Translations under genes and position numbers: made by a program
In this document: positions 9,814-55,691 of the stretch, one piece after another
Position numbering within the stretch: the first letter of the stretch is position 1
How the letters are laid out: the number at the start of each line of letters is the position of its first letter
Assembly (NCBI GenBank): GCA_029266425.1
Contig: JAQSWY010000009.1
Location: forward strand, 1-64,000
Direction of reading: 5' to 3'
Origin: Xanthobacteraceae bacterium
GTDB lineage: Bacteria; Pseudomonadota; Alphaproteobacteria; Rhizobiales; Xanthobacteraceae
DNA length: 64,000 nucleotides
Notes under the pieces: generated by a model
Database searches by the model: none
Seen by the model: the letters and a program-made list of their open reading frames with translations, nothing else
Told to the model about the DNA's origin: nothing

Positions 9814-9889
9814 GCCCAGGTAGCTCAGTTGGTAGAGCATGCGACTGAAAATCGCAGTGTCGGTGGTTCGATTCCGCCCCTGGGCACCA
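9814..9889 (+). tRNA. tRNA-Phe (anticodon GAA), integration target
   Basis: A complete 76-nt tRNA with encoded CCA. The acceptor is GCCCAGG/CCTGGGC, the anticodon stem TGCGA/TCGCA encloses CTGAAAA (anticodon GAA), and the T-arm is CGGTG-GTTCGAT. Its 3' end forms the left copy of the repeat that bounds the genomic island. Confidence 0.97.
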
Positions 9890-9905
9890 TTACCTCCCTA
9901 TCAGG
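9875..9905 (+). other. attL-like direct repeat at tRNA-Phe 3' end
   Basis: A 31-base sequence running from CGCCCCTGGG in the tRNA T-arm/acceptor through CCA into TTACCTCCCTATCAGG. The same sequence, lacking one G, recurs in direct orientation at 55662-55691. A tyrosine integrase gene starts about 185 bases to the right, as expected for an attachment site. Confidence 0.85.
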
Positions 9906-10090
9906 CCGGATCAGAGTGTCTCATATAGCATCATATCCACTTGATTTCACTAGATAAATTCTCGCGTAATCGTCTCCGACCGTATCATTTCGGCTCACGT
10001 TCGATCACCGCATCTCACGAATTTGTTGGCCTTGCTGTTGGCTCCGACCTGCGCTTTGTTGGCCTCGAAGCCAACGGGGCGGGGCGAATC

Positions 10091-11299
10091 ATGTCTATGT
10101 CGGATGCTGCGTGCCGGGCGGCCAAGGCAGCGGAACGCGAGTACAAGCTCTCCGACGGTGGCGGCCTCTATCTGCTTGTAAAGCCGAACGGAACTCGTCT
10201 GTGGAACCAGGCGTACCGGTTCGCCGGGAAGCAGAAGAAGCTCTCTCACGGTTCCTACCCGACCGTATCGCTGGCGGACGCCCGCCGGCTGCGTGATGAG
10301 GCCAAGAAGCTGTTGGCCTCGGGCGTCGACCCAGGGGCCAACAAGCGGATCCAGCGGCTCGCCGCAGTGACTTCGGCGGGAGACACCTTTGGCGGCCTTG
10401 CGGCGGAGTACCTCGCCCGCATTGAGGACGAAGGCGCCGCGCCGGCGACCGTCTCCAAGAACCGCTGGATGCTCATCGACCTCGCCGGCCCTTCGTTGGG
10501 CACGCGGCCGATCGCGGACATCACCCCGGCGGAGATCCTGGTGCTGCTCCAGCAGATCGAGCGCACCGGGCGCCGCGAGACGGCCCGCCGGCTGCGAAGC
10601 GTGATCGGGACGGTCTTTCGGCTGGCCGTCGCCACGCTTCGCGCCAAGGACGATCCCACGCTGCCGCTCCGCGGCGCGCTGAAGGCGCCAAAGGTGAAGC
10701 ACCGGGCGGCGATTACCGACGAGAAGCGCCTCGGCGCCCTGCTGGCGGCGATCGACGATTACGACGGCTGGCCGACGCTCCGTTGCGCCCTCCAGTTCGC
10801 GGCCCTTACGTTCGCGCGCCCGGGCGAGGTGCGCGGCGCCGTGTGGGACGAGATGGACATCGAGAACGCCGTTTGGCGGATCGACGGGAAGCGCACCAAG
10901 GTCCGCCGGCCACACGATGTGCCGCTCTCGCGCCAGGCGCTCGATGTGCTGCGTGAGGTGAAAGAGGTGGCGCGCGCCAGCACGCTCGTCTTCCCGTCCA
11001 TTCGTTCGAACAAGACACCCCTTTCAGAGAACGCCATGAACTCGGCGCTGCGGCGGCTCGGTTTTACGCAGGACGAAATGACGGCGCACGGCTTCCGCGC
11101 CGCGGCGAGCTCCATCCTTAACGAGAAGGGGTTCCGGCCCGACGTGATCGAAGCGGCGCTAGGCCATCAGGAGAAAAATGAGATCCGGCGTGCTTACAAT
11201 CGCGCGACCTACTGGCCTGAGCGCATCGAGCTGATGCAGGCTTGGGCGGATCACCTCGATTCGCTAAAGCGAATAGGTGATGCTGCAGTCGCCCTATGA
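10091..11299 (+). CDS. Tyrosine integrase (P4-like, DUF4102 N terminus)
   Basis: A 402-residue site-specific recombinase. The N terminus (REYKLSDGGGLYLLVKPNG, then LSHGSYPTVSLADAR) is the arm-binding domain of P4-type integrases. The middle is a SAM-like core-binding domain. The catalytic part shows FARPGEVRG (first Arg), HGFRAAAS (His-x-x-Arg), ALGHQ and a C-terminal Tyr in RAYNRATYWPER. It lies directly beside tRNA-Phe with the attL repeat, the standard arrangement for excision and integration at that tRNA. ATG at 10091 was chosen because upstream in-frame sequence lacks domain character. Confidence 0.93.
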   Translation: MSMSDAACRAAKAAEREYKLSDGGGLYLLVKPNGTRLWNQAYRFAGKQKKLSHGSYPTVSLADARRLRDEAKKLLASGVDPGANKRIQRLAAVTSAGDTFGGLAAEYLARIEDEGAAPATVSKNRWMLIDLAGPSLGTRPIADITPAEILVLLQQIERTGRRETARRLRSVIGTVFRLAVATLRAKDDPTLPLRGALKAPKVKHRAAITDEKRLGALLAAIDDYDGWPTLRCALQFAALTFARPGEVRGAVWDEMDIENAVWRIDGKRTKVRRPHDVPLSRQALDVLREVKEVARASTLVFPSIRSNKTPLSENAMNSALRRLGFTQDEMTAHGFRAAASSILNEKGFRPDVIEAALGHQEKNEIRRAYNRATYWPERIELMQAWADHLDSLKRIGDAAVAL

Positions 11300-11445
11300 A
11301 CTCGCTCTTCCCGTTCTGTTGCTATAGGCGCTTAATGTTCTCCGATCGCGCCCTTAGTTCGCGCAGCCGCGTTTCGGTCGGGGCGCAGAGCAGCGCGCCG
11401 AATTATGGAGATGCCGCGTCTCGCGACATCGCCGCCGTCTCGCTG

Positions 11446-12591
11446 CTATCTAGGGGCAGATCGGCGCATCCAACTCATATCGGGCTTTTCCTTCGGCGGA
11501 ATCTTTACTGTCTTTTGCGGCGCAAGCTTAAAATCCTTAACCGCCTTACCTTTGCAAATGTGCCTTAGAACTCGGCGAAAGAGGCGGACGTCGCCGAAGT
11601 AGTTTGGATAAGCTTCTTTAAGACTCTTTATCTTGTCCGCCTCAACCAAGACGGTTGTGTACCTCGCTCTGTGCTCCGCTACGTCGAAAGATGCCGCGCC
11701 CTCAAAGGGCCCGCTCATGGGAGACACAGCGACTTCGTCCAAATCATTGTCGTATATGATTAGATAGTACTCAGGCTGAAAGCTAGGGGATCGAATATAT
11801 TCATCGATAAAATTTACTGCGTGGGCAATCTTGTCCAGAGTGTAGGAAGCCTTGAGATCTTTGTTTAGCCTCTTTATTTCTCTTATTCGATCCTTGCCGA
11901 CCGATACGTCAGGCGGTTCGTTGCAGGCCTCCATAACCGCCAACTCTGCCGACATAAGCAGGAATAGTCGTCGCCATTCGGGTTTGCCGCCACCACCTTT
12001 AATATCCTCGCCCAAGAACAATCCGACGGCCTCGACCGCTGTCGCCCAAGCGTGTTGAATGCGCGTTCGAATTTGGACCTCCACCTTCCGACCCTCGAAG
12101 ATCGCCGCGTCGGGATCGGCCCCAGCGGTGAACCGGAAAACTATATGGTAGGATCGGTATCCATCTTTCTTCGGCGCAGCGATGTAGTCGTCGGGTCGCG
12201 TCGCTCGGTGTGGAAATGTAAGTGAAATTTGCTGTATTAGAGAATTTACGTCTTCAATAGAGTTCAGTATTGCCCGGCATCCCGCGAGGTCTTGAATGTC
12301 ATCAAGTTTGATCGGACGCTTTCGAAGCTTTTTTCGGATCGAAGGCATTCGCTTTATGCGTGCTGCGGTGAGGCCTTTCACCTTTGCACGCGCTAGATGG
12401 CCGATGAGCGCCCGCCTCATAACTGCCATCGGGTAAAGGTGAGAATCGCGCCAGCTATTCGCAATTTTGAATATTTCCCGAACATCGTCCTCAGCATCTG
12501 GCGCCCAGACGATCGCTTCGCGCAGCGCATCTCCCGCGCGCGACACCTGCTTTTTGCTGAATTCAAATTTCGGGAAGCCAATCGCACCCAA
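11446..12591 (-). CDS. RelA/SpoT synthetase-domain protein, candidate phage-defence toxin
   Basis: A 381-residue protein with one alarmone-synthetase fold and no hydrolase, TGS or ACT domains. Visible motifs are DLAGCRAIL (catalytic Asp about 101), YIAAPKKDGYRSYHIVF (Tyr136-Arg146), and EVQIRTRIQHAWA (Glu171, His180, Trp182), so the active site appears intact. The remaining 180 C-terminal residues match nothing I know. This size and island location fit single-gene fused toxin-antitoxins of the CapRel type, or other toxic small alarmone synthetases. An ordinary small alarmone synthetase is the alternative. The start is TTG, with GGAG at 12602-12605. It is convergent with the integrase gene and relatively AT-rich. 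Confidence 0.85.
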   Translation of the reverse strand: MGAIGFPKFEFSKKQVSRAGDALREAIVWAPDAEDDVREIFKIANSWRDSHLYPMAVMRRALIGHLARAKVKGLTAARIKRMPSIRKKLRKRPIKLDDIQDLAGCRAILNSIEDVNSLIQQISLTFPHRATRPDDYIAAPKKDGYRSYHIVFRFTAGADPDAAIFEGRKVEVQIRTRIQHAWATAVEAVGLFLGEDIKGGGGKPEWRRLFLLMSAELAVMEACNEPPDVSVGKDRIREIKRLNKDLKASYTLDKIAHAVNFIDEYIRSPSFQPEYYLIIYDNDLDEVAVSPMSGPFEGAASFDVAEHRARYTTVLVEADKIKSLKEAYPNYFGDVRLFRRVLRHICKGKAVKDFKLAPQKTVKIPPKEKPDMSWMRRSAPR

Positions 12592-14452: not shown

Positions 14453-16750
14453 GTGAACGCGCACAACATAAAGGACGTAACGCCAATACCGCAAGGCTTG
14501 GATGCGGACGTTGCGATCGATTTTTTGAAGTCTCTCGACGCGAACGGCTGGCACAATCTCGTGTCGATTCGGTACCGTGGCAACCCCGAGACGAAAGACA
14601 TTCGCGGTAAGACATTCCCGGCCGGAAAGTGGGATGAAATCCGCGCGTGGATCCTTGCCCAGGATCGAGATGCCAATCTCTATTACAGCTTGAACGAACC
14701 TAAGCCGGGCTCGCGCGATGACAAGCTGGGAAAGGCGGACATCGCTGCGATCCGCGCCGTTGCCGGCGACGTCGATCCTCACCCGGAGAACACCGCTTCC
14801 TATGACGACGCGCGGGGCGTTGTAATCGAGCGTATGGCGGGTCTCCACGTCGGCGACCTGCCGCCAACCTTCATCGTGGACAGCGGAGGCGGCGCGCAAC
14901 CCATATGGATGCTGGACGAAAAGGTTGCGGCCTCGGGGCTGGTCGCTGATGTCGAGAACATCGGCCGTGCGGTCGCGCGGGCAATCGGCGGGGACGCGGT
15001 GCAGGACATCAGTCGTATTCTCCGGCTGCCCGGCACCATCAATCACCCCAGTATGCAAAAGCTTGCGCGCGGGCAGATGAAGCGCGCCACGTCCGTCCTG
15101 CACCGGTCCGACCGGCGCCACTCCCTATCCATGCTCGCCGCGGTCTACGCGCCCTTGGAAGGTGGCCCTATGGTCGACATGTCGCCGCTGGTGGCGGAGA
15201 TCACTGCCGAGCTCGAATGCGCCGACCTGTACACCGTGCCGCCGGCGCTCCGCACCCGGTTCAGCGAGGCGAAGCTGCGCCATCCCAAACTGAACCTCCT
15301 CTGGCAGGGCAATCCTGAAGGGCTAATCGGCGAGGACAACTCCAGCAGCGGCTGGCGCTTCAGTCTTGCGGCGCGGCTCGGCGAAGCCGAATTCACCGCG
15401 ACCGATTACGCCCACATGGCGCTGGACTGGGAGATCGCTCAACTTGATCGCAGCGGGATCGATCCCGACGCGCCCGGCGGGCTGCGACAGCTCGCGCGGG
15501 ACTGGGCGCGCGGCGGGCACCCCCGGACGTCTGCCTTCCGCGCGGCGCGGTGGTTCGAAGAACCGAGCGAGCCCTTGTTTCCTGACGAGCCGACGCAATT
15601 GGCGCGCTCTACCGAGGCCGCTCCTATCCGTTGGATCAATCCCGAAGAATGGCGCGACAAGCCAATTCCTCCTCGAGAGTGGGAGGTTCCCAATTTCATT
15701 CCGCGCTTCGAGGTGTCGGCACTCTATGGCGACGGCGGTATCGGCAAGACGTTGTTGATCCACCAGTATGCCATCTGCGCGACCGCCGGCGTCCCATGGA
15801 TCGGGCAGGAAGTGCGGCAGGCCCGCGTCATGTGTTTCTTCTGCGAGGACAGCGAAGACGAGCTGCAGCGCCGGCATGCAGACATACTCTCGGCGCTCAC
15901 CCTAGACTTCAGCGCGACCAGCGACCGCCTGCGCCTCGCGAGCCGGCGTTTCATGGACAACGTTCTGGCGACATGGGATCGCCAATCCGGTCGAATGCAG
16001 CGCCTGGCCGTGTGGGACCAGCTTAGGGAAGCAGCACTGAACTTTCGCGCCGATGTTGTGATCATCGATACGCTGGCGGACGTGTTTGGCGGCGAAGAGC
16101 AGAACCGGATCCAAGCCACTGCTTTCATAAAAGCGTGCCTTGGGCGCCTCGCCCAGGAAATCGGCGGTTCGGTCATCGTGCTCGCGCATCCGTCGTTGAG
16201 TGGTCAGAGTTCCGGGCAGGGAACGTCCGGCTCGACCGCGTGGAACAACTCTGTTCGCTCGCGTCTCTACCTCCGTTATCCGAAGGGTGCAGCGAAAGGC
16301 GACTTTCGCGAGCTCGAAGGCATGAAAGCGAACTACGGGCCGAAGGGCGGTTTGCTGAAGCTACGTTGGAACCGCGGCGCGTTCGACGTGATCGCGGGAA
16401 CGGTGCCCGGCTCGGTGCCGCGCACGGCGTTTCCGAACCTTGACCACGCTGCGGACCAGGCGGTCGTCGCGGCCCTGCTCGATAGCCCAGGGGCCCGACA
16501 CTCGACGGCGCGGAACAGTCCCTACTTCGCCCCGCGAGCCCTCAAGCGCCAAGCCCCTGAAATTCTCGCGACGCTCACGGAGGCGGAGATCGCCGAGGCA
16601 CTTTCCCGTTTGGAGCGACGACGCCTCATCCGCCTCGAAGGCGTGCGGCGGGACGGCTCTCGACGGGAAGTCGAAGGCTACGTCGTCCTCTTGGACAATT
16701 TGTCCGGTGAGACGGCCGGCGCGGCCGAAACGGCCTCGATATTTACGTGA
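14453..16750 (+). CDS. Primase-like and RepA-type AAA helicase fusion
   Basis: A 765-residue replication protein. Residues 1-230 resemble the DNA primase/RepB-like domain of mobile-element initiators (TFIVDSGGGAQPIWMLDEKV, then SRILRLPGTINHP). Residues from about 410 form a RecA-like RepA/AAA_25 helicase: Walker A GDGGIGKTLL, then MCFFCEDSEDEL, Walker B VVIIDTLADVFGG, and SVIVLAHPSLSGQSSG. The last 100 residues look like a winged helix (LTEAEIAEALSRLERRRLI). The start is GTG at 14453. Iteron-like repeats follow at once, suggesting that the element can replicate from a nearby origin. Confidence 0.85.
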   Translation: MNAHNIKDVTPIPQGLDADVAIDFLKSLDANGWHNLVSIRYRGNPETKDIRGKTFPAGKWDEIRAWILAQDRDANLYYSLNEPKPGSRDDKLGKADIAAIRAVAGDVDPHPENTASYDDARGVVIERMAGLHVGDLPPTFIVDSGGGAQPIWMLDEKVAASGLVADVENIGRAVARAIGGDAVQDISRILRLPGTINHPSMQKLARGQMKRATSVLHRSDRRHSLSMLAAVYAPLEGGPMVDMSPLVAEITAELECADLYTVPPALRTRFSEAKLRHPKLNLLWQGNPEGLIGEDNSSSGWRFSLAARLGEAEFTATDYAHMALDWEIAQLDRSGIDPDAPGGLRQLARDWARGGHPRTSAFRAARWFEEPSEPLFPDEPTQLARSTEAAPIRWINPEEWRDKPIPPREWEVPNFIPRFEVSALYGDGGIGKTLLIHQYAICATAGVPWIGQEVRQARVMCFFCEDSEDELQRRHADILSALTLDFSATSDRLRLASRRFMDNVLATWDRQSGRMQRLAVWDQLREAALNFRADVVIIDTLADVFGGEEQNRIQATAFIKACLGRLAQEIGGSVIVLAHPSLSGQSSGQGTSGSTAWNNSVRSRLYLRYPKGAAKGDFRELEGMKANYGPKGGLLKLRWNRGAFDVIAGTVPGSVPRTAFPNLDHAADQAVVAALLDSPGARHSTARNSPYFAPRALKRQAPEILATLTEAEIAEALSRLERRRLIRLEGVRRDGSRREVEGYVVLLDNLSGETAGAAETASIFT

Positions 16751-20107: not shown

Positions 20108-20650
20108 ATGGCCGTCCCGAAAGTGGTTTCGATGTTCGCTCCTTTGTCCCCGGCCCGGTGCCGTCGGGACGGAGAGAATGGCTCGCGCCAGCGCAATATA
20201 TTCGCGTGCAGCGTCCAGCTGACCGTCGAATGTTTGACAGAAGCCGGCCAGCTTAAAGAGCGGGTCGAAATAGCACTCGCGATCTCCGTTGCCCTTCTCA
20301 ACTTTCGCGACATATCCAGCTCCGATCAGTTGTCACAACATCTGACGGGACAGCATCGCGACAAGGTCGTCGAGGCCTCTATCTCGGCTCAAGTCGCCGT
20401 CGAGACATGTTTCGCCGACCTGGAGTGCGCGCGGCTGGTCGATGCGCTCCGAGCTCTGAGAATGCTGGCGATCATCTTCGCCGACCCTCGCACCCGCAAG
20501 AATACACCGAGTGATCGGCTCCACGACTTGCGGGCGCTTATTCAACTTGGTCGTCACACAGCAGACGAGGTCGGTATTGTTCACGACATGGCGCTTCGTG
20601 CTGAAGCGCGCGCGATGTCCACGCTCAATTATTGCGAGGAATGGGCATGA
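20108..20650 (+). CDS. Uncharacterised phage-block protein
   Basis: A 180-residue soluble helical protein with no recognised family. AGGAGAG at 20094-20100 supports the ATG at 20108 (MAVPKVVSMFAPL) rather than the ATG at 20078. It is coupled by an ATGA overlap to the next gene, so the two products probably work together. Nothing indicates a structural role. Confidence 0.6.
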   Translation: MAVPKVVSMFAPLSPARCRRDGENGSRQRNIFACSVQLTVECLTEAGQLKERVEIALAISVALLNFRDISSSDQLSQHLTGQHRDKVVEASISAQVAVETCFADLECARLVDALRALRMLAIIFADPRTRKNTPSDRLHDLRALIQLGRHTADEVGIVHDMALRAEARAMSTLNYCEEWA

Positions 20651-21159: not shown

Positions 21160-21168
21160 GGTCCCGCC

Positions 21169-40171: not shown

Positions 40172-40230
40172 TGTGTCGTCTCCTTTTCGGACCGAATTTG
40201 GGCTAGACGAGACGGCATGGCGAGAATAAG

Positions 40231-40253: not shown

Positions 40254-40272
40254 TTGCATGGGCGTGTAAGGC

Positions 40273-41136: not shown

Positions 41137-41206
41137 TCGCTGCTGCGCGACGACATTTTAGGTGCACTTTTGCCGAGGTGCGTCGGCGTCCGGCACCGCT
41201 GATCCT

Positions 41207-41977: not shown

Positions 41978-42016
41978 GTTTGCGTCCTTCGACGATGTTC
42001 AGGTGGCGGTTTTCAT

Positions 42017-43033: not shown

Positions 43034-43103
43034 GCGCATCTCCGATTGCCGATATCGGTGGTCCGCCGGCAGCCGAGCTGGCGGGTTTTCCGTTCCCGTG
43101 AGT

Positions 43104-44740: not shown

Positions 44741-44741
44741 C

Positions 44742-45767
44742 TCAGCCTCTCGTGACGGGTAAAGGGGAAGGCTGCTGCGCCTTCTTCGAGATAGGCCGGG
44801 ATGATCCGGCCAGGGCGGTTACGGCGATGCCGGCAAGAATAGCGAGGGAGCCGGCGGCAAGTCCCAAGGTCAGCGGCTCGCCAAACAAGGCGACCGACAA
44901 GGCGACACCCGTGACGGGCACGCCGAGCATCGCGGTGGACATGGTGCCGGCGGGCAGCCAGGTGCTCGCGGCATTGACCACGCAGAAGCAGAACGCCGTC
45001 GCCAGTGGTCCGACGAAGAGCAGGATGGCCCAGAAACTCATTGAGCCGTCGCCCGTGAACGGCCCTTCCACGTAATTGGCGCCGATGGCAAGCAGGCCGG
45101 CCGCCAGCAGCATCTGCCATGGTGCCAGTTCGAACGCCGAGGATGGGCTGCGGAAGTAGCGCAGATGCAATATGCAGAGCGCCCAGCAAAGCGAAGCGGC
45201 GAGCAGCATTGCGTTTGCGCCGGCGATGCTGCCGTTGCTCCAGTCGATGGTTGCCGGGTTCATCAGGACGACGATCCCGGCCGCGCAGATCGCCACACCT
45301 GCGACGACACGGATTGAGGCCCGCTCCCCGAAGATCAGCATCGAAGCCGGCACAACCCAGAGGGGCGTGACATAGGAGAGCATCGCCGAGCGGCCTGCCG
45401 GCAGATGCGTCATCGCCGCCGCGCCAAGCGCGGTGAAGGCCAACATCTGCAGTAAGCCGACCGAGGCGATGAACGGTGCGTCGCCGCGGCGCGGAAGACG
45501 AATCTCTCCACGTATTGCCTGCCAGACGAAGAGACACAGCGAGCCCGAGGCAAAACGCAGGCTGGAGAACCAGAGTGGCGAGACGTGGTCCAGGCCGATC
45601 TTCATCACGGGCCAGTTGGCACCCCAGATCGCGATGGCCGCGACGAGCGCGACGAAGCCCACTTTCGACGATCCCACCGTTGGCGTCAGCCACAATGGCG
45701 GCTCAGTGGCGCGCAAAGCGCAGCTACCGAGCGTGCCGACGCACGGTTCTTCGAGGTTAAGACGCAT
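44742..45767 (-). CDS. EamA/DMT-family exporter
   Basis: A 341-residue inner-membrane protein with about ten transmembrane helices in two EamA repeats. The repeats show LVAAIAIWGANWPVMK and PAGRSAMLSYVTPLWVVPAS in the first half, and LLAASLCWALCILHLRYF and LGVPVTGVALSVALFGEP in the second. EamA/DMT transporters move small metabolites, drugs or amino acids outward. It is separated by one base from the MRJP-like gene, so it probably exports a substrate or product of that operon. Confidence 0.9.
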   Translation of the reverse strand: MRLNLEEPCVGTLGSCALRATEPPLWLTPTVGSSKVGFVALVAAIAIWGANWPVMKIGLDHVSPLWFSSLRFASGSLCLFVWQAIRGEIRLPRRGDAPFIASVGLLQMLAFTALGAAAMTHLPAGRSAMLSYVTPLWVVPASMLIFGERASIRVVAGVAICAAGIVVLMNPATIDWSNGSIAGANAMLLAASLCWALCILHLRYFRSPSSAFELAPWQMLLAAGLLAIGANYVEGPFTGDGSMSFWAILLFVGPLATAFCFCVVNAASTWLPAGTMSTAMLGVPVTGVALSVALFGEPLTLGLAAGSLAILAGIAVTALAGSSRPISKKAQQPSPLPVTRG

Positions 45768-45801
45768 GGGTCTGTTCCTGCCGCCCCGCGAGAGGACGGT
45801 C

Positions 45802-46788
45802 TCAATTGATGTCGATGACGATCTTTCCGGTCGCGTGGCCGGACTCGAGATGCCGGTAAGCGTCAGGTACCTGCTCGAGCGTGAAGCGGCGGTCGTCGAT
45901 GAGCGGGCGCAGCTTGCCTGCGTCAGCGAGGGTTGCGAGCTCGCGCAGGACACGTCCGTGCCATTCGCGGCCGATGCCGTAGAGCATCGGGATCATGACG
46001 AAGACGATGCTGAGCGATAGCGCCTTGCCGTGCATCGGCGTCAGATCGTTGGTGCTCCGGCCGGCAGTGCCGACGATCCGGCCATAGAGCGCAGCCGCTT
46101 CGAAGGACCTGTCGAGATTTGCACCGCCGACGGTATCGATCACGACGTCAAAGCCGCGTCCCTCCGTCAGGCGTTCAACATAGGCGGCGACAGCTTCGCG
46201 AGTGAAGTCGATCGTCTCGTCCGCACCGAACGTGCGGGCAACCATAGCCGCTTCGTCCGAAGGAACAGTCGTGGCCACGCGAGCCCCGCGGGCCTTGGCA
46301 AGCTGAACGCCCACGTGCCCCACGCCGCCCACGCCGCCATGAACCAGCACGTGGTCTCGAGTCCTGACCTCGGCGCGATCAAGAGCATCCCAGGCGGTTA
46401 TCGAGACGAGTGGCAGCGCTGCTGCCTCGCGCGTCGACAGGTTACGAGGCTTTGGCGCGACCAGGCGAGCGTCAGCCAGAATATACTCGGCGAGCGCGCC
46501 ACCGTCCTGCCCCTTCACGCCGCCGGCGAAGCCGTAGACGACATCGCCTGGGTGGAAGTCGGCGACGTCATCGCCGACAGCAACCACCTCGCCCGCGAAG
46601 TCCGAGCCGAGTATCGACGGCAGTTCTGCCCCGATCGGCAGCCCCTCGCGGATGCGAACATCGATGCGATTGATCGCCGCCGCGACGATCCGCACGAGCA
46701 CCATGCCCGCCCGAATGACCGGCCTGTCGACATTCTGGAGCTCAAACTTCTCCGGGCCGCCATGGGATTTGAGAACCTGAGCCCGCAT
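45802..46788 (-). CDS. NADPH:quinone oxidoreductase-like protein
   Basis: A 328-residue medium-chain reductase of the quinone-oxidoreductase type. It has VRIVAAAINRIDVRIREG, PGDVVYGFAGGVKG, and the nucleotide-binding loop VHGGVGGVGHVGVQLAKARG. No zinc ligands were seen. It is the first gene of the six-gene leftward operon. The ATG at 46788 was chosen over TTG 46800. The promoter gap faces the LysR gene and contains the 16-bp site at 46860-46875. Confidence 0.9.
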   Translation of the reverse strand: MRAQVLKSHGGPEKFELQNVDRPVIRAGMVLVRIVAAAINRIDVRIREGLPIGAELPSILGSDFAGEVVAVGDDVADFHPGDVVYGFAGGVKGQDGGALAEYILADARLVAPKPRNLSTREAAALPLVSITAWDALDRAEVRTRDHVLVHGGVGGVGHVGVQLAKARGARVATTVPSDEAAMVARTFGADETIDFTREAVAAYVERLTEGRGFDVVIDTVGGANLDRSFEAAALYGRIVGTAGRSTNDLTPMHGKALSLSIVFVMIPMLYGIGREWHGRVLRELATLADAGKLRPLIDDRRFTLEQVPDAYRHLESGHATGKIVIDIN

Positions 46789-46859
46789 CGCTCGCCCCAA
46801 CCGTTCTATTGACGTGGGGAGGCTATGTGCGGATTACTTATAAAGGAAACGCATTGTTC

Positions 46860-46875
46860 TAATTGCAGCAATCGG
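46860..46875 (+). promoter_or_regulatory. Duplicated LysR-site candidate (left copy)
   Basis: TAATTGCAGCAATCGG lies between the divergent oxidoreductase operon and the LysR gene. Its exact inverse recurs at 47887-47902 before the GlcG-like operon. The core ATTGCAGCAAT is itself a palindrome. Confidence 0.7.
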
Positions 46876-46916
46876 CCGATCAACTAGATCGCGTCGCTGG
46901 GAAAAGGGGTACCGAA

Positions 46917-47816
46917 GTGCGCTATCCGGATCTTGAGATCGATCTATTGCGCGCCTTCGTGGCCGTCGCGGAGACCGGTAGCTTTACTGCAGCGGCGGAG
47001 GTGGTTGGCCGCTCGCAGTCGGCGGTTAGCCAGAAGATATTGCGCCTGGAGGAACTGCTGGGAAGACGGTTGTTCGAGCGCACGAGTCGCTCGCTCAGTC
47101 TGACGCGTGATGGCGAGGCATTCCTTGTCTCCGCACGGCGCATGCTCGAGCTCAATGACCTGACGATGCGCAGCCTTCTGGAACCTGCGCCTATGGGAAG
47201 CTTACGACTCGGGGTTTCTGAGGACTTCATTCCGCGTCAGCTTCCGGCGGTACTCGCGCGCTTCCGGCGGCTCTACCCGCAGGTCAATCTGGAGCTGAAG
47301 ACCGGGCTTAGCTGCGACCTGCTCGATGCTTATGACGCGCAGGCGCTCGACGTCGTCATCGCCAAGAAGGACGGACGTGCCCAGCGCGGCCGGGTAATCT
47401 GGCGCGAACCGTTGGTGTGGATGGCGGCGGCCGATTTCATGCCCGACGTCACGCAACCCGTGCCTCTCGTTCTGCTTGCTCCCCCCTGCACCTATCGCGA
47501 GGTCATGGTTCGTGTGCTGGGTGAATCCCGGCGCGAGTGGTTCGCGGCTTGCACTGCGTCCAGCCTGATGGGTGTCCAGGCGGCCGTCGAGGGTGGTTTG
47601 GGAGTTACGGTCCTGGGCCGCTCCTTCGTACAGGATGGCATGCAGGTTCTTCAGTCGCCAGAGCACTGGCCGCCTTTGCCGATGACCGAGATCGTCCTCC
47701 TGGGGGAGGAAACGGCGCAATCTGACCTGGTGCGACCTCTGCTCTCCTACGTGACCGAGAGCCTTTCGACGTCGAAAACTCAATCGGATTACGCAACCTT
47801 GCTCAGATGGCATTGA
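46917..47816 (+). CDS. LysR-family regulator of the flanking clusters
   Basis: A 299-residue LysR regulator. The HTH is FVAVAETGSFTAAAEVVGRS followed by QSAVSQKILRLEELLGRRLF, and the effector domain has the usual length. GTG at 46917 with AAGGGG about eight bases upstream is a better start than the TTG at 46863, which lies inside the putative operator. It sits between a leftward six-gene operon and a rightward two-gene operon, both of which carry the same 16-bp site in front, so it is likely the common regulator. Confidence 0.93.
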   Translation: MRYPDLEIDLLRAFVAVAETGSFTAAAEVVGRSQSAVSQKILRLEELLGRRLFERTSRSLSLTRDGEAFLVSARRMLELNDLTMRSLLEPAPMGSLRLGVSEDFIPRQLPAVLARFRRLYPQVNLELKTGLSCDLLDAYDAQALDVVIAKKDGRAQRGRVIWREPLVWMAAADFMPDVTQPVPLVLLAPPCTYREVMVRVLGESRREWFAACTASSLMGVQAAVEGGLGVTVLGRSFVQDGMQVLQSPEHWPPLPMTEIVLLGEETAQSDLVRPLLSYVTESLSTSKTQSDYATLLRWH

Positions 47817-47886
47817 GCGACGCCCTGCTAGGCTAGCACTCTTAAAAAGGCCCGATATCGGACTATCAATTCGTTTATTCGCCCAC

Positions 47887-47902
47887 CCGATTGCTGCAAT
47901 TA
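47887..47902 (-). promoter_or_regulatory. Duplicated LysR-site candidate (right copy)
   Basis: CCGATTGCTGCAATTA is the exact reverse complement of the site at 46860-46875. It sits in the 238-base gap between the LysR gene and the GlcG-like gene, about 150 bases before the latter. Confidence 0.7.
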
Positions 47903-48054
47903 AAACTATGCGTTTCTAATTACCGACCGCTCCCGGCAATAGTTTGTCCCGAATTCAGGCCACGCGCTTAGATCAGCGGCGGTCTGTGGCTCTTTTCACG
48001 CTTCTGTACGTCTCTTGAACGAGTCGTGCGGCACGCGACCAGGGATCCCGTCAA

Positions 48055-48504
48055 ATGCCACATGCTGAATTGCTCCAAACGACGCGACAGCTAACTTATG
48101 CCGCGGCCGTCATCGGCGTCTCCGCCGCGGTTGCAAAATCCCATGAGATCGGAGCGCCCGAGTGCATCGCCATCGTTGACGCGGCTGGCCACCTTCTCGC
48201 TTATGCGCGCGTGGAGGGAGCGGCCACGCTGGCGCTTGAACCGGCCGTCGCCAAGGCCGCCACCGCTGCTGCTCTCGGCACGGCAAGCGGCACAATCCCC
48301 TTTGAATTTGGCATCAACCTCGGCATCGCCAGCCGGAACGCCATCGTCAATCTCGGGGGCGGCTTGCCGATCATCCATGATGGCCATGTGGTTGGCGCCG
48401 TCGGCGTCGGCTCGGGTACAACCGAACAGGACATGGCTGTGGCCGAAGCTGGGCGCGATGCCATACTCGCGGCACTGGCGACTGACCAACCGATCGCGCG
48501 CTGA
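48055..48504 (+). CDS. GlcG/HbpS-family protein
   Basis: A 149-residue protein of the GlcG/HbpS (PF03928) fold. Signature elements are ECIAIVDAAGHLLAYARVEG, KAATAAALGTASGTIPFEFG and a glycine-rich GGLPIIHDGHVVGAVGVGSG loop. Members bind haem or small acids and often sit with catabolic oxidoreductases. It has no signal peptide. It is the first gene of a two-gene operon with the MRJP-like gene, nine bases away. Confidence 0.9.
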   Translation: MPHAELLQTTRQLTYAAAVIGVSAAVAKSHEIGAPECIAIVDAAGHLLAYARVEGAATLALEPAVAKAATAAALGTASGTIPFEFGINLGIASRNAIVNLGGGLPIIHDGHVVGAVGVGSGTTEQDMAVAEAGRDAILAALATDQPIAR

Positions 48505-48512
48505 CATAGAAC

Positions 48513-49742
48513 ATGGCCATGCCTCTATCCAGACGCACCGTAATCATGTCGGCGCTTGTGTCGACTGTTCCGATGAGCCTCGGTTCCCGCGAGGCCCTAA
48601 CTGAAACCCGTGGAGACGACGGCATGATTGCAAACGCATCCGCCGCGGCAACCCGTAAATTTGCAAGCGATCGCACGATCGGCGAGATCGAGCCGATGTT
48701 CGAGTTCTACGATGCCATGCCAACGGGCGTGACCGTCGCCGCCGATGGACGCATCTTCGTCAACTACCCACGGTGGGGCGATGACGTGCCTTTCACGGTT
48801 GCCGAGCTCCGTGACGGCAGGGCCGTTCCGTTTCCCGACGCGGCGAGCAACGTCTTCGATCCGGCACGCCCCGACAAAACGCTGAGCAGCGTCCAGAGCG
48901 TCGTAGTTGATCCGGCGAACCGGGTGTGGCTGCTCGACACGGCCGCGCCTGGTTTTGCCACGCCGATCGAGGACGCCGTCAAGCTGGTCGCGGTCGACCT
49001 CGCGACCGACAAGGTGAGCCGCACGATCGTCCTGTCGGGTCCTGCCATCTTCCCGACCACCTACGTGAATGACGTGCGCTTCGACTTGCGCAAGGGCGAA
49101 GCCGGTGTCGCTTACATCACCGATTCCTCGATCAGCGGGCCGGGCGGCATTATCGTCGTTGACCTCGCCAGCGGCGAGAGCTGGCGAAAGCTGAGCGGCC
49201 ATATCTCGACCTCTCCGGACCCGGCCTTCATCCCGGTGGTGGAAGGCAGCCGCTTCGCGGTACGCGACAAGGGAAAGCCGCCCGCCTCGCTCACAGTAGC
49301 CTCCGATGGAATCGCCATCTCGGCAGACGGCGAGACGCTGTATTACTGCCCACTTTCGAGCCGTCACCTTTATTCCGTTCCCACGAAGTTGCTGTTGGAC
49401 CGCTCAGCCTCGGAGGAGGTGGTTGCTGCCGCTGTCCTCGATCTTGGTGAGAAGGGTGCCTCGGACGGGCTGGAATCGGACGATCAGGGCCGTGTCTATG
49501 CCGGTGATTATGAGCGCAACAGCATCCGACGCCGCGGGATCGACGGTGAATGGGTCACCGTCGCGCATGATCCACGTATCCTCTGGCCCGACACGCTGTC
49601 AGTCGCTGCCGACGGTTATCTCTACTTTACCGCCAACCAGCTACACCGGCAGCCCCAATTTCACGAAGGGGACGATCAGCGCGAGAAGCCTTATGTACTG
49701 TTCCGCGTTCGCATTGATGCCGCTCCGGTACTGCTCAGATAG
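48513..49742 (+). CDS. Yellow/major-royal-jelly-like protein, copy 2
   Basis: A 409-residue exported protein. The N terminus MAMPLSRRTVIMSALVSTVP has a twin-arginine-type signal, in contrast to the Sec-type signal of the paralog at 43643. Blade motifs include GVTVAADGRIFVNYPRWGDD, SVVVDPANRVWLLDTAAPGF, YVNDVRFD and GIAISADGETLYYCPLSSRH. It probably acts with the GlcG-like protein in the same undefined pathway. Directly after its stop a phage gene remnant begins. Confidence 0.85.
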   Translation: MAMPLSRRTVIMSALVSTVPMSLGSREALTETRGDDGMIANASAAATRKFASDRTIGEIEPMFEFYDAMPTGVTVAADGRIFVNYPRWGDDVPFTVAELRDGRAVPFPDAASNVFDPARPDKTLSSVQSVVVDPANRVWLLDTAAPGFATPIEDAVKLVAVDLATDKVSRTIVLSGPAIFPTTYVNDVRFDLRKGEAGVAYITDSSISGPGGIIVVDLASGESWRKLSGHISTSPDPAFIPVVEGSRFAVRDKGKPPASLTVASDGIAISADGETLYYCPLSSRHLYSVPTKLLLDRSASEEVVAAAVLDLGEKGASDGLESDDQGRVYAGDYERNSIRRRGIDGEWVTVAHDPRILWPDTLSVAADGYLYFTANQLHRQPQFHEGDDQREKPYVLFRVRIDAAPVLLR

Positions 49743-49743
49743 G

Positions 49744-49866
49744 GCTCGCCGCGCGGACTGGCTGCGGGAGGGCGAGAGCAAAATCGATGCGCTGGCCGGG
49801 CGCGTCGACCGGTCGCCGAACGGTGCGAAGAGCCGGGAAGAATTTTTCTCGGGAAGCGATCGATGA
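49744..49866 (+). pseudogene. C-terminal remnant of a phage ejection protein
   Basis: The sequence reads RRADWLREGESKIDALAGRV then DRSPNGAKSREEFFSGSDR and a stop. It matches the last 40 residues of the 1001-residue phage protein at 22767-25772 (ADWLREGESQIDALGKRV...EQFFSGGAQ) with clear divergence at both protein and DNA level. The rest of the gene is absent, replaced upstream by the MRJP-like gene. It shows that a second, related prophage once lay here. Confidence 0.8.
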
Positions 49867-50265
49867 TCGCTGCTGTAGATGCCTCGGCATCTCAATATTG
49901 ATTGTCTCTTGGCTCCCCTACACGTGCTGCGGTGGAGCGGCGCCGGGCGAGGTTGGGCACTGCGCGAGCGCACCGGCGGCGGAAATCGCCGGCTTCATCT
50001 TGCATCGATGCATTACGGGTCATTCCTTCACGATGAGGTTGCACGCAGGAACGACCTGACGCTACGGAACTTATCGATGTCTTACATCGAGAAAAGTCGA
50101 TGTAAGCTTCGCTTTATTTCTATTTTCGACCAGCTCGTTTTGGTCGATCATGCGTTCAAATCTCAATAATAACTGGAATTCTACCCGGTCCGGGGAAGCA
50201 CTACGCCAATGAAAGCGACGTATTTCTAAATAGAATACATCACTCATGCTGCGGGGGCAAAAGAC
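49867..50265. other. 399-base gap with TCGATGT palindromes
   Basis: No supported gene. It contains TCGATGT-CTT-ACATCGA (50074-50090) and a further TCGATGT at 50097-50103, an arrangement that resembles a repressor operator. The sequence becomes AT-rich from about 50090, consistent with the promoter of the ABC transporter operon that starts at 50266. Confidence 0.5.
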
Positions 50266-51111
50266 ATGACACCTTCTTGCGGGCTCAGGGATAGCCGTCC
50301 TTCGTCGAAGATCGTTGCGACCATAGCGGCTTCGTGGCTGTGCTTGCTTCCGGGCGCTTATGCGGAGGCAAAGGATGCCCTGTCTTCCGTTAAGGCAAAC
50401 GGGAAGATCGTCTATTGCAGCGACCTCTCCGCACCGCCCTTCATATATCTCAACCCGACCTCGATGCAGCCCGATGGCTTCGATGTCGACGTCGGGATCG
50501 CGGTCGCGAAGGAAATGGGCGTTATCGCCGAGTACAAGAACATGGCGTTCGAGGGGCTCATCCCGGCTCTGCAGGCCGGCCAGTGCAACGCCATCTTGTC
50601 CTCGCTGTACGACAAGCCGGCGCGGCGCGCCATCGTCGACTTCGTCAATTATGCGCTGGTCGGCAATGCCGTCATCGTCAAGTCGGACAGCACTCTCGCG
50701 GTCAAGGATCTGCTCGGGCTGTCCGGCAAGAAGGTCTCGGTCGAGCGCGGTTCGGTGAACGAGGAAGAGGCGCTCCAGGCCAGCAACGAACTGAAGAAAC
50801 AAGGCAAGCCGCCGATCGACGTCGTCTCGCTGCCGAAGGTGACGGATGCCATCCAGCAGCTTCTCGCCGGCCTGGTCGATGCCTTCTACAGCGGCACCGC
50901 CACCGAGGCGGATTTCAACAAGAAGAATACCGTCAAGGTCAAGCTTGCCGGCCCGCAGACGACGACCTTCTATACCGGCATCGCCACGCTGAAGGACGAT
51001 GCCGATCTGCACACCGCCATCGATGCCGCCTTCAAGAAGGCGCAGGCCGACGGCAGCTATGACGGCATCATCAAGAAGTGGAGCTTTGAGTCGATGGCCA
51101 TCGCGCCCTAG
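50266..51111 (+). CDS. Polar amino-acid ABC transporter substrate-binding protein
   Basis: A 281-residue periplasmic binding protein of family 3, with a signal peptide (VATIAASWLCLLPGAYAEA). The opening VYCSDLSAPPFIYLNPTSMQ is followed by DGFDVDVGIAVAKEMGV and FEGLIPALQAGQCNAILSSL, the usual ligand-cleft motifs. It captures a polar amino acid or a related compound such as an opine or gamma-glutamyl derivative (inferred from the gene at 52708). It is first in the four-gene operon. Confidence 0.92.
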   Translation: MTPSCGLRDSRPSSKIVATIAASWLCLLPGAYAEAKDALSSVKANGKIVYCSDLSAPPFIYLNPTSMQPDGFDVDVGIAVAKEMGVIAEYKNMAFEGLIPALQAGQCNAILSSLYDKPARRAIVDFVNYALVGNAVIVKSDSTLAVKDLLGLSGKKVSVERGSVNEEEALQASNELKKQGKPPIDVVSLPKVTDAIQQLLAGLVDAFYSGTATEADFNKKNTVKVKLAGPQTTTFYTGIATLKDDADLHTAIDAAFKKAQADGSYDGIIKKWSFESMAIAP

Positions 51112-51143
51112 CAATCCATCCGGGGACGCAAGGGTTACGCCCG

Positions 51144-51905
51144 ATGGATTTCGGCTACTTCCTCAACTTCCTGCTCAACCCTCCCGCCATCGTGTGGGAG
51201 GGGCTGCTGGTGACCATCTATATCTCGGTGCTGGCGCAGGCCTTGGGCGTGGTGCTGGGGCTCGGGGTCGCTTTGGCGCGGCTCTCCACCAGTTCCTGGC
51301 TGCGTGGCTTCGCGATCTTCTATGTCTGGTTCTGGCGCGGCACGCCGCTACTGGTGCAATTGATGCTGGCCTATACCGGCGTCGCTGCCGCGGGCATCTA
51401 CCGTTATCCCGACCTGGTGCTGGGGCCGTTCGTCTTTACCGGGCCGCTGCAGGCGGCGTTGCTCACGCTGGCGCTCAACGAGGCCGCCTATATGAGCGAG
51501 ATCTTCCGCTCCGCCATCTCGACCATCGACAACGGCCAGACCGATGCCGCGCGGGCGCTCGGCATGAGGCCCGCCGTCTCGTTCCGCTGGGTGATCTTTC
51601 CGCAAGCGCTGCGGATCGTCATCCCGCCGCTGGGCAATGAGTTCACGCTGATGATCAAGGGCACGTCACTGCTCAGCATCATCGGCGTCCGCGAGTTCTT
51701 CGGGACGTTGCAGAACATCAATTCGGCGACGTTCCGGACCTTCGAGCTCTTCCTCTACGCCGCCATCTGGTACCTGATCCTGACGACGATCCTCGGCTTT
51801 GCGCAGAAATCGCTTGAGCGCCGCATGGCGCGGCACGAGGCGCCGGGCGCGCGGCGCCTGTCTGCTGCGCTTTCCAAGCGGTCCTTGCTGGCGGGTCAGA
51901 GATGA
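51144..51905 (+). CDS. Polar amino-acid ABC transporter permease
   Basis: A 253-residue inner-membrane permease of the HisMQ type. It has five or six transmembrane segments. The permease loop EIFRSAISTIDNGQTDAARA then LGM (EAA motif) marks the contact with the ATPase. There is only one permease gene, so it probably forms a homodimer. Its stop overlaps the ATPase start by four bases. Confidence 0.93.
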   Translation: MDFGYFLNFLLNPPAIVWEGLLVTIYISVLAQALGVVLGLGVALARLSTSSWLRGFAIFYVWFWRGTPLLVQLMLAYTGVAAAGIYRYPDLVLGPFVFTGPLQAALLTLALNEAAYMSEIFRSAISTIDNGQTDAARALGMRPAVSFRWVIFPQALRIVIPPLGNEFTLMIKGTSLLSIIGVREFFGTLQNINSATFRTFELFLYAAIWYLILTTILGFAQKSLERRMARHEAPGARRLSAALSKRSLLAGQR

Positions 51906-52696
51906 GCCTCGCCGCGGTCGCATCCCCGCCAGAGTCAGCGCCTGTGCTGCGCGTGGTGGACGTCTCGAAGAAGCATGGCAGCAACTGGATCCTGCGCGGT
52001 GTCTCGCTGGAAGTGGCGAAAGGCGAAGTGCTTGCCGTCATCGGTCCCTCGGGCTCGGGCAAGACCACGCTGGTTCGCTGCATCAACCAGCTTGAGCCCA
52101 TAGACGGCGGCCGCATCTATCTTGACGAAAGCCTCGTCGGCTATCGCGACCGCAATGGCCGCATGGAGCGGCTCTCCGAGCGGCAGATCGCCGGCCAGCG
52201 CACCCACATCGGCATGGTGTTCCAGCGCTTCAACCTGTTCCCGCACATGGACGCGCTTGCCAACGTCATGGTGGGCCCGTTGCGCGTGCTGCATCGCCCG
52301 GAGCCGGAGGTCCGGCCGGAGGCGATCGAACTGCTGCGGCGCGTCGGCCTCGGCGAGAAACTGCACGCCTATCCCGGCCAACTCTCGGGTGGCCAGCAGC
52401 AGCGCGTCGCCATTGCCCGCGCTTTGGCGATGCGCCCAAGGCTGATGCTGTTCGACGAGCCGACCAGCGCGCTCGACCCGGAGACGGTCGGCGAAGTGCT
52501 CGACGCGATGCGTGAACTCGCCATGTCCGGCACGACGATGATCGTCGTGACCCACGAGATGGGCTTTGCCCGCGATGTCGCCGACCATGTGATGGTCATG
52601 GACGCCGGGGTCGTCATTGAACGCGGGCTATCGCGCGAAGTCTTCGCCAGACCCGCGCACGAGCGAACCCGCGCCTTCCTCCAGGCGGTACGCTGA
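51902..52696 (+). CDS. Polar amino-acid ABC transporter ATPase
   Basis: A 264-residue ABC ATPase of the HisP/GlnQ type. It has Walker A GPSGSGKTT, Q-loop MVFQRFNLFPHM, signature LSGGQQQR, Walker B LMLFDEPTSALDPE and the His switch VVTHEM. It energises the transporter encoded by the two genes before it. The stop is followed by 11 bases and then the gamma-glutamyltransferase-like gene. Confidence 0.96.
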   Translation: MSLAAVASPPESAPVLRVVDVSKKHGSNWILRGVSLEVAKGEVLAVIGPSGSGKTTLVRCINQLEPIDGGRIYLDESLVGYRDRNGRMERLSERQIAGQRTHIGMVFQRFNLFPHMDALANVMVGPLRVLHRPEPEVRPEAIELLRRVGLGEKLHAYPGQLSGGQQQRVAIARALAMRPRLMLFDEPTSALDPETVGEVLDAMRELAMSGTTMIVVTHEMGFARDVADHVMVMDAGVVIERGLSREVFARPAHERTRAFLQAVR

Positions 52697-52707
52697 GCGA
52701 GCGCGGC

Positions 52708-54351
52708 ATGAGCATCCCGCAGAGCGGGCCGACCTGGCCGCACCTCGACGCCTATGAGCAATTCCCTCAACTCGCCGGGCACCGGCCGGTACTGGGCACG
52801 CGGGGCATGGTCTCCTCGCCTCACGCGATGGCCTCAACCATCGGCTGCGATGTTCTCAAGGCGGGCGGCAATGCGGTGGACGCCGCCATCGCGACCAGCG
52901 CCGCACTGATGGTCGCCTGTCCGATGCAATGTGGTCCCGGCGGCGATGCCTTCTGGCTGATCGCGGAGCCAAGCGGGGAGGTTCACGCGCTCGATGCCTC
53001 CGGCCGCGCCTCGCGTCATGCCGACGCGGGAAGGCTGCTCGCGCAGGGCCATCCCGCCATCCCGCCGCGCTCGGGGTTCGCGGTGACCGCACCGGGTGCG
53101 ATCGACGGCTGGAGCGCGGCGCATCGGCGCTTCGCTTCGCAGCCGCTCGCCGGGCTTCTGGAGCCGGCCGCGGCACTGGCTGAAGGCGGGGTGGTCGTCT
53201 CGCGCCACCTTCATGCCAGCTTCCAGATCTGCACGGCCGAACTCGCCGCCAAGGATGCGCTGCGCCTCTGGGGCGGGAAAGGCCCGCGTGTCTATGATCG
53301 GCTGAAGCAGCCGGCACTGGCGGCGCTGCTACGCGGCATTGGTCGCAACGGCGCCGGCCATTTCTATGGCGGCGCCATGGCTGGTGCCGTCGCCCGCGCC
53401 GTCGCGACTGCCGGCGGCTGGCTCGATGAGGCGGACCTCGCCGCGCATGCCAGCGACTGGGTGGCGCCGCTGCAGGGCCGGTTCCGCGACCTCGACGTCC
53501 TCACCACCCCGCCATCGTCGCAGGGCTTCAGCCTGCTGATGGCACTGGGCTTCGTGGAGAGCGTCCCTAGCGGCACTGGCCGGTTTGAACTGGCGAACCT
53601 GCATCTGGAGATCGAGGCGGTAGCCGCCGCGCTTGCCGAGCGCGATGCCATCAATGATGACCGCGCGCGGCTTGCCGTGCCGATAGAGCGCACATGGGGA
53701 AGTGAGCGCCGCGTCGCTTTTGCCCGCGCCTTCGGCATGCAGGCTCGCAGCGTGGCAGGAATGCAGGGTACCGATCGCATCACGCGGGGCGATACCGCCC
53801 ACCTGTGCGTGGTCGATGGCTCCGGCATGGCGGTGTCCCTGATCCAGAGCCTGTTCTTCGATTTCGGCGCCTGCATCCCGGTGCCTGAAGGCGGCTTCGT
53901 GCTGCAGAACCGTGGTGCCGCCTTCACGCTCGACGGCCCGGTCGCACGGCTCGCGCCCGGCATGCGGCCACCGAACACGTTGATGCCGACCATCGCGTTG
54001 CGCGAAGGAAAACCGGCCATTGTGCTCGGCTGCATGGGAGGTGACGGACAGATGCAGGCGCAGCTGCAATTGCTATTGGATCTGTGCGACGGCGGGCTCG
54101 ATCCCCAACAGGCGGTATCGCGGCCGCGCTGGTATCTCGACCGCTCGGCACCAGGCGGGCCCCGCCTCATGATGGAAGACGGCCTTGACGAGGTTCTCAT
54201 CGACGGCTTGAGGGGGGTGGGCCACAAAGTCGAACGCCTCGGGCGGTTCGAGGACCGCATGGGCCACGCGCAAATCATCGCAATCCGGGACGACGGCGTC
54301 CTGGTCGGGGCCGCGGATCCCCGCTCTGACGGACAGGTCGCCGCATTCTAG
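52708..54351 (+). CDS. Gamma-glutamyltransferase family protein
   Basis: A 547-residue Ntn-hydrolase of the gamma-glutamyltransferase group. The N-terminal part shows MVSSPHAMASTIGCDVLKAG then GNAVDAAIATSAALMVACPM and GPGGDAFWL. The self-cleavage Thr lies in RGDTAHLCVVDGSGMAVSLI, and GCMGGDGQMQAQLQLLLDL is further downstream. It has no signal peptide, so the enzyme should be cytoplasmic, cleaving a gamma-glutamyl compound (or acylated amide) brought in by the transporter. Confidence 0.9.
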   Translation: MSIPQSGPTWPHLDAYEQFPQLAGHRPVLGTRGMVSSPHAMASTIGCDVLKAGGNAVDAAIATSAALMVACPMQCGPGGDAFWLIAEPSGEVHALDASGRASRHADAGRLLAQGHPAIPPRSGFAVTAPGAIDGWSAAHRRFASQPLAGLLEPAAALAEGGVVVSRHLHASFQICTAELAAKDALRLWGGKGPRVYDRLKQPALAALLRGIGRNGAGHFYGGAMAGAVARAVATAGGWLDEADLAAHASDWVAPLQGRFRDLDVLTTPPSSQGFSLLMALGFVESVPSGTGRFELANLHLEIEAVAAALAERDAINDDRARLAVPIERTWGSERRVAFARAFGMQARSVAGMQGTDRITRGDTAHLCVVDGSGMAVSLIQSLFFDFGACIPVPEGGFVLQNRGAAFTLDGPVARLAPGMRPPNTLMPTIALREGKPAIVLGCMGGDGQMQAQLQLLLDLCDGGLDPQQAVSRPRWYLDRSAPGGPRLMMEDGLDEVLIDGLRGVGHKVERLGRFEDRMGHAQIIAIRDDGVLVGAADPRSDGQVAAF

Positions 54352-55037: not shown

Positions 55038-55039
55038 GG

Positions 55040-55204
55040 TCAGATTCCCCCGCTGTGCCGTTGACCCCAGTCGGTTCCCGCGGACAGAAGGCGGCGCCCC
55101 TCGGGGGTCAGCGAACCGAAGAGCACCGCCTGCCGAAGACCCGCCCCGCGCGCCTTGACCCGTCGACATTCCTGCAAGCATGCTCGGTACGATGTGACCG
55201 CCAT
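55040..55204 (-). CDS. Small protein coupled to the lipoprotein and XRE genes
   Basis: A 54-residue basic protein MAVTSYRACLQECRRVKARG, then AGLRQAVLFGSLTPEGRRLL. Its ATG overlaps the stop of the upstream lipoprotein gene as TGATG and it ends two bases before the XRE start, so it is likely a real member of the operon. No family was recognised. Confidence 0.55.
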   Translation of the reverse strand: MAVTSYRACLQECRRVKARGAGLRQAVLFGSLTPEGRRLLSAGTDWGQRHSGGI

Positions 55205-55614
55205 CACGAAATGCCCCTTTGTTGCGCGATTCGGCATGTCAGGCTGTTCGCCACCATGGGCGCCCTGTAGGAGCCTGGCACCACCGTAGCGACGGTTCGC
55301 CCCTGAACGACGAAAACGCGCCGGCCAGACACGTCGTAGGCATCAGACGGTGTGAGCCCGGCCCGCGCCGAGAACTCCGCCATTGTCAGCCCGACGACGC
55401 TCTGCATCTGCGCTTGTTGGGCCTGTTGCACCTCGGCAGCCGTCTGACATCCGCCGAGCGTCATCGCCAGGAGCGCCAGAACGAGAAGCGCCAGCACTGT
55501 TCGGATCGGCCGTCGCCTCAGCGGGCCTGGCGCCCTTTCCGCACCGCTTTTTGATTCCCGTAGGGGAGAAAAATCGGCTGTTGGCCTCGGCGCGGGCCTC
55601 GACCAAAACCACAC
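55204..55614 (-). CDS. Small lipoprotein
   Basis: A 136-residue protein. After a long basic N terminus (RRRPIRT) there is a hydrophobic segment VLALLVLALLAMTLGGC, whose lipobox (TLGGC) marks a lipid-modified cysteine. The mature part (AEVQQAQQAQMQSVVGLTMA, then VFVVQGRTVATVVPGSYRAP) resembles small host or phage-encoded outer-membrane lipoproteins of unknown role. A shorter start within the basic stretch is possible. It leads the three-gene coupled operon. Confidence 0.6.
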   Translation of the reverse strand: MWFWSRPAPRPTADFSPLRESKSGAERAPGPLRRRPIRTVLALLVLALLAMTLGGCQTAAEVQQAQQAQMQSVVGLTMAEFSARAGLTPSDAYDVSGRRVFVVQGRTVATVVPGSYRAPMVANSLTCRIAQQRGIS

Positions 55615-55661
55615 CGAGAAAGTTATATGAAAATCAATGTCTTGTGAGACATTTGCGATGA

Positions 55662-55691
55662 CGCCCCTGGCACCATTACCTCCCTATCAGG
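55662..55691 (+). other. attR-like direct repeat
   Basis: A 30-base copy of the sequence at 9875-9905, identical except for one missing G in the GGG run (CGCCCCTGGCACCATTACCT is the first part). It lies between the lipoprotein operon and the remnant of the SOS-controlled gene. It marks the right boundary of the island. Confidence 0.8.

Follow-up and report, generated by a model that had tools for sequence, protein, structure and literature searches.

We examined a window of 64,000 nucleotides, the first part of contig 14 (175.7 kb) in the draft genome G000 of a Xanthobacteraceae bacterium, which comprises 222 contigs and is 91.65% complete with 7.51% contamination. The subject of this analysis is the stretch from 9.9 to 55.7 kb, which lies between an intact tRNA-Phe gene and a displaced copy of its 3' end. 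The left flank of this stretch is 77-82% identical at the DNA level to Ancylobacter aquaticus, which suggests Ancylobacter as the genus. Thirty genomes were used as a genus set for comparison, and G022, with about 89% DNA identity, was the closest relative examined. The translated comparison was mostly noise and its results were kept solely where tblastn agreed. The tRNA-Phe(GAA) gene at 9814-9889 (forward strand; ARAGORN, Rfam tRNA 71 bits) is the apparent integration target. A tyrosine integrase gene (10097-11299, forward strand) starts about 210 bp downstream of it and encodes the Pfam domains Arm-DNA-bind_3, Phage_int_M and Phage_integrase. As in a tRNA-integrated island or prophage, an integrase thus stands directly downstream of a tRNA gene and a direct repeat of the tRNA 3' end lies at the far side.

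The 31 bases at 9875-9905 (the left attachment-site, or att, copy on the attL side) recur on the same strand at 55662-55691 without one G, so that 30 of 31 bases match and the final 21 bases of both copies are identical. Only 14-15 nucleotides of the repeat belong to the tRNA, and the remaining 16 lie past its end. Patterns of 20 and 21 nucleotides with up to three mismatches matched these two sites only in the window, compared with 0.00 matches per shuffle over 100 shuffles, and they gave no further match inside the stretch from 9.9 to 55.7 kb. The local-alignment score of the repeat was 27, compared with at most 16 for 150 control 31-mers. The original prediction, made from the sequence of the window, had described both this repeat with its single deleted base and an integrase just inside the left copy; the pattern searches with their chance controls and the Pfam domains bear it out on both points. 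DNA upstream of the right copy is at most weakly tRNA-like, as 39 of 2000 real stretches were as good locally and 209 of 2000 globally.

Homologs of the integrase were collected from 20 loci in public genomes, 16 of which were inspected upstream; the four omitted loci either start at a contig end (L204, L205), match only from residue 244 (L213) or are 33% identical (L217). A tRNA gene immediately precedes the integrase in 14 of the 16 loci. It is tRNA-Phe in six and a tRNA for Arg, Gly, Glu, Met, Thr (twice), Asn or Val in the other eight, while ARAGORN recognized no upstream tRNA in two. Among full-length homologs at 79-87% identity with upstream DNA, tRNA-Phe precedes the integrase in all five. 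These counts suggest that the integrase family uses several tRNAs and that its near branch uses mostly tRNA-Phe. Two viral contigs were found with a 64% identical integrase. In one of them CCGCCCCTGGGCACCAT stands where a group of late genes (tail, head decoration, endolysin) borders on the integrase-primase genes, a position that would be the place expected for attP, and the second carries the end of another tRNA. Judged from sequence, the repeat is an attachment-site relic and the att sequences are real, because the near integrase homologs sit at tRNA-Phe, a phage contig carries the core and G022 has displaced tRNA-end copies of its own. A separate search of viral contigs with the 21-nucleotide att string gave a single match, at a locus where ARAGORN found no tRNA, which we regard as chance.

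G022 has three more copies of the tRNA-Phe 3' end beyond its tRNA, at distances of 46.8, 83.3 and 104.7 kb. Behind the first comes an integrase that shares 52.6% identity with the one in the window, the second adjoins another integrase and the third includes about 45 nucleotides of the tRNA. The same deletion, CCCTGG-CACCA, is seen in three of four displaced tRNA-Phe end copies from two species, namely that of the window and two of the three in G022. Allele GGTTCGATTCCGCCCC of the tRNA 3' half is present in four of the 30 genus genomes. Since G022 displaced copies one and two start near CCGTCCC, the core is probably located further along and this allele may be older; the alternative idea is that this island swapped the tRNA 3' half. 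A 25-nucleotide pattern (up to three mismatches, ungapped) found tRNA-Phe in 30/30 genus genomes, together with one two-mismatch match in each that resembles another tRNA and a few three-mismatch matches, and no displaced tRNA-end copy was recognized among them.

The sequence surrounding the site points to a variable region larger than the repeat-bounded stretch. The left flank could be aligned up to the tRNA in all six relatives compared (G022, G002, G007, G008, G013 and G020). The sequence after the tRNA is common to none of the 23 relatives listed, and a 24th locus (G004) ends before that point. Contig 14 is collinear with G022 from 79.9 to 131 kb, the limit of the G022 sequence compared, starting 143.7 kb past the tRNA of G022, and the variable region thus measures 70 kb here versus 144 kb in G022. 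Backbone shared with G022 begins again only at 79.9 kb, which places the outer end of the variable region beyond the right att copy. The best match in the window's genome to the G022 flank that follows the third copy reaches 72%, which is not a close counterpart.

Between the att copies, the left part from 10 to 28 kb is prophage-like, with a gene order of integrase, RelA/SpoT protein, helix-turn-helix protein, primase-helicase and four late-phage-like genes. The primase-helicase-like replication protein (14453-16750, forward strand) matches AAA_25 and a PHROG DNA polymerase/primase (E 2.3e-33). The four late-phage-like genes (20647-27833, forward strand) encode proteins of 170, 532, 1001 and about 640-660 residues that were compared with PHROGs and have no Pfam match. 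Only the last of these matches phage, and weakly (tail/virion PHROGs, E 1.4e-5 and 1.7e-4), and the other three are unassigned; its G022 homolog (62%) adjoins a phage tail protein, and no homolog of the 636-residue form was found in phage records. For the 1001-residue gene, genome contigs and phage records gave no homologs and viral contigs one 30-residue match. Terminase, portal and capsid genes, which an intact prophage would be expected to carry, were not recognized in the proteins of the 10-28 kb part that were scanned with Pfam or PHROGs. In A. aquaticus DSM 101 the tRNA-Phe locus holds an integrase at 87% identity and replication genes at 37-56% with the middle missing, and 108 residues near the end of the 1001-residue gene are found at the same locus with 80% identity. 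The A. aquaticus element looks like an eroded sister at the same tRNA, and this type of prophage seems to decay in place.

Two observations concern possible defense genes near such elements. The RelA/SpoT-domain protein of the window (11446-12591, reverse strand; Pfam) is a phage-defense candidate, PDC-S33 (PADLOC, E 1.8e-97), and adjoins the integrase within a low-GC (guanine plus cytosine) stretch. Behind the decayed prophage of A. aquaticus DSM 101 (L200: 15701-21165) lie genes for a GHKL ATPase with an HEF_HK domain, a response-receiver protein and a C5 DNA methylase, which are perhaps a defense module.

To the right of the prophage-like part, profile matches and low GC mark a module of two RepB-like genes and a large serine recombinase (28247-31624, reverse strand), for which no unit ends were found. 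It is followed by a block of accessory bacterial genes (32505-38056) with a 65-residue gene, CsbD, SRAP, repeated small secreted-type genes and a Na/Ca exchanger. Homologs of this block lie at 1.77 Mb in G022; the 65-residue gene and SRAP are also neighbors in G024 and G008, and SRAP with a relative of the 65-residue gene occurs inside the first tRNA-Phe interval of G022 as well. The small secreted-type genes form a family of four copies at 35172-37977 (129-nucleotide repeat family D1), several homologs of which are found at the same 1.77 Mb locus. Profile matches assign the next block (39164-49742) to catabolic functions, with zinc dehydrogenases, LysR regulators, MRJP-like, EamA and HbpS-like proteins, and among the matches listed it has partial homologs at 67-72% in G004 and G024. 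The last block encodes an ATP-binding cassette transporter and a gamma-glutamyltransferase (50028-54351, forward strand) and is 89% identical to G022:3032784-3037105, an identity typical of the backbone. The DNA that flanks this segment in G022 sits on contig 23 of the window's genome, with a different 10 kb in the place of the block. The reading of 32-55 kb as native chromosome in place was rejected because these pieces lie apart in G022. The relaxase and type IV secretion genes expected of an integrative conjugative element were not recognized by Pfam among 50 proteins scanned from 10.1-55.6 kb.

Beyond the right copy, the DNA from 55.7 to 79.9 kb holds a DUF2147 gene and a 19-kb hopanoid cluster, the left part of which lies in the window (56314-64000, continuing to 75368 on the contig; forward strand) and within the larger variable region according to NCBIfam and the G022 comparison. 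NCBIfam matches above or near the cut-off cover HpnA, B, C, D and E, squalene-hopene cyclase, HpnN and dxs. The G022 hopanoid cluster is about 89-90% identical and sits some 264 kb from tRNA-Phe, on its other side. A match to HpnA at E 1e-60 or better was present in two of the 30 genus genomes, at chromosomal places that differ between the two. A dispersed repeat of about 118 bp marks the right edge of the cluster (contig 14: 75368-75485), and a 90% copy of it (contig 29: 39212-39329) adjoins DNA that neighbors the cluster in G022.

Two scraps in the window resemble sequences found elsewhere in it. The first (49748-49858, forward strand) repeats the 3' end of the 1001-residue phage-like gene (25653-25764) with 75% identity over 112 bases. 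The second (55697-55813, reverse strand) is a cut-off fragment that resembles the start and upstream part of gene 32930-33127, with 76% identity over 120 bases and its counterpart from 33063, and it lies 6 bp beyond the right att copy. Together with the att copy, these scraps may be signs of a second, related element. The right copy may also preserve integrase-side sequence from an earlier related element, since the integrase-side sequence of A. aquaticus starts almost like the 16 nucleotides of the repeat that lie beyond the tRNA end.

Taken together, the stretch from 9.9 to 55.7 kb does not look like one clean mobile unit. It appears to be a stack to which a decayed prophage, a second recombinase module and displaced bacterial genes have contributed. 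We consider it rather probable that repeated integration and deletion at a tRNA-Phe hotspot trapped accessory DNA between att copies. With tyrosine and serine recombinases, scraps of another element and tandem copies in G022, the locus shows more than one recombinase and more than one element, and it looks like a composite genomic island of the ordinary kind; an att copy between stacked units is present in G022, while the pattern searches found none in the window. The original prediction had left the choice between one mobile unit and a stack of units: the blocks that lie elsewhere in G022 and the scraps favor the stack, while one unit was not demonstrated. In favor of its interpretation are the real att sequences, an integrase family frequently located at tRNA-Phe and the variability of the site. 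Its mixture of phage-like, recombinase, catabolic and transport modules is present, the phage-like part resting on the primase-helicase and the weak tail/virion matches, and some of the unit limits that it took to be invisible can be seen after all. It had expected an empty site in relatives, with tRNA-Phe followed directly by the 55.7-kb flank. In G022, the sole relative able to test this, an integrase and a tandem series of tRNA-end copies come after tRNA-Phe and the flank differs, and no relative showed an empty site or a clean native flank beyond the far repeat. As the case against itself it had named relatives with the 32-54 kb genes in the same order; just the 32.5-38 and 50.0-54.35 kb blocks were found, at separate places in G022.

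Several results weigh against this reading. Neither an empty site nor an excision product or circle was seen. The gapped searches that revealed the displaced copies in G022 gave no convincing one, as judged by eye, over 80 kb past the tRNA in G002, G010, G011, G020 and G021. The right copy lacks one base and may therefore be inactive. The second element is known just from short scraps and the att copy, which could have arisen by other routes of duplication, and the genome is a draft of many contigs with reported contamination. Composition does not divide cleanly either. Relative to 45 backbone windows, which were themselves part of the reference, tetranucleotide deviation peaks at 16-20 kb (z 8.0) and 28-32 kb (z 6.0). 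The DNA at 40-46 kb is near native (z 0.6-1.0) despite lying inside the att copies, and 1-4 kb of the window, outside them, reaches z 2.9, so that this measure draws no boundaries.

Other explanations have to account for the same features. A single 46-kb integrative element, either an island or a cargo-bearing prophage, could have arrived whole, with the 55.66-kb copy as its attR. The two direct att copies with an integrase just inside the left one and no third copy found between them fit such an arrival, as does a size close to the 46.8 kb that separate the tRNA of G022 from its first displaced copy. We nevertheless hold it to be unlikely, given that the 32.5-38 and 50.0-54.35 kb blocks lie elsewhere in G022, the latter at backbone-typical identity, that scraps of a second element are present and that no conjugation genes were recognized among the proteins scanned. 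The mobile or rearranged unit could instead be larger, reaching from tRNA-Phe to about 79.9 kb and carrying the hopanoid cluster, with the 55.66-kb copy as an internal scar. The point at which backbone common with G022 resumes, the different location of the cluster there and the scarcity of HpnA-like matches in the genus all agree with this. It is nonetheless distinctly doubtful: searches of the contig around 79.9 kb gave no tRNA-end copy, the cluster is bordered on its right by a dispersed repeat and not by an att site, and composition toward 79.9 kb is near native (z 0-2.6 for most of 56-82 kb). Chance or faulty assembly as the origin of the right copy is hardly credible, even in a draft genome with reported contamination, since shuffles and control 31-mers predict no chance match and the outer parts of the contig on either side keep the order seen in G022. 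The two copies differ by a deletion, and an assembly join at an exact repeat is therefore unlikely.

In the preferred reading of repeated integration and deletion, the tRNA-Phe gene would be a standing integration hotspot. By recombination between the final bases of tRNA-Phe and an identical core on the excised element, the integrase of the 10-28 kb element would keep the tRNA gene whole and place a second copy of the tRNA 3' end at the far side. The site would have been used more than once by related elements. Most of a second element would later have been lost through deletions and rearrangements, so that its late-gene scrap at 49.75 kb and the 55.66-kb att copy remained. By the same processes, accessory bacterial DNA (32.5-54.6 kb) would have come to lie between the att copies. 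This order of events is the one we infer. The integrase may still be able to excise 9.9-55.7 kb as one composite unit.

Parallels exist in other bacteria. For Bordetella petrii it was proposed that islands whose integrases and att sites are related may take in non-island DNA when they insert in tandem (PMC2717098), and the window resembles those islands in having related integrases and att sites in tandem. However, excised circles were detected there by polymerase chain reaction and one island is conjugative, whereas the left element of the window is prophage-like. Like CGI48 of Shewanella putrefaciens, described in PMC8978831 as about 48 kb at a tRNA gene (tRNA-Trp) with an element within an element, the stretch is of similar size and tRNA-associated; the inner element of CGI48 still excises, while the parts in the window, which may be nested, look decayed. 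The preference for some tRNA genes and the retained attP/attB homology recall the tRNA hot spots of Sinorhizobium meliloti, although that study, in the portion available (PMC11476347), concerns other tRNA genes in other bacteria and does not treat the site of the window. Among the papers found on genomic islands in Ancylobacter, titles and abstract openings show none that concerns this site.

The locus shows the turnover of a tRNA hotspot in Ancylobacter-like bacteria, because none of the 23 relatives listed shares the sequence of the window, G022 carries tandem copies and blocks are displaced between att copies. It is also a warning that a stretch between two tRNA repeats should not be taken as one transferred island. 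A further and quite speculative idea, to which we assign little weight, is that native chromosomal operons are captured at the tRNA-Phe site and become trapped among att relics or next to them. The examples would be the transporter/gamma-glutamyltransferase block, which is enclosed by the two att copies, and the hopanoid cluster, which lies between the right copy and the shared backbone. If this were true, an integrase could move core-type metabolism as cargo between Ancylobacter-like species.

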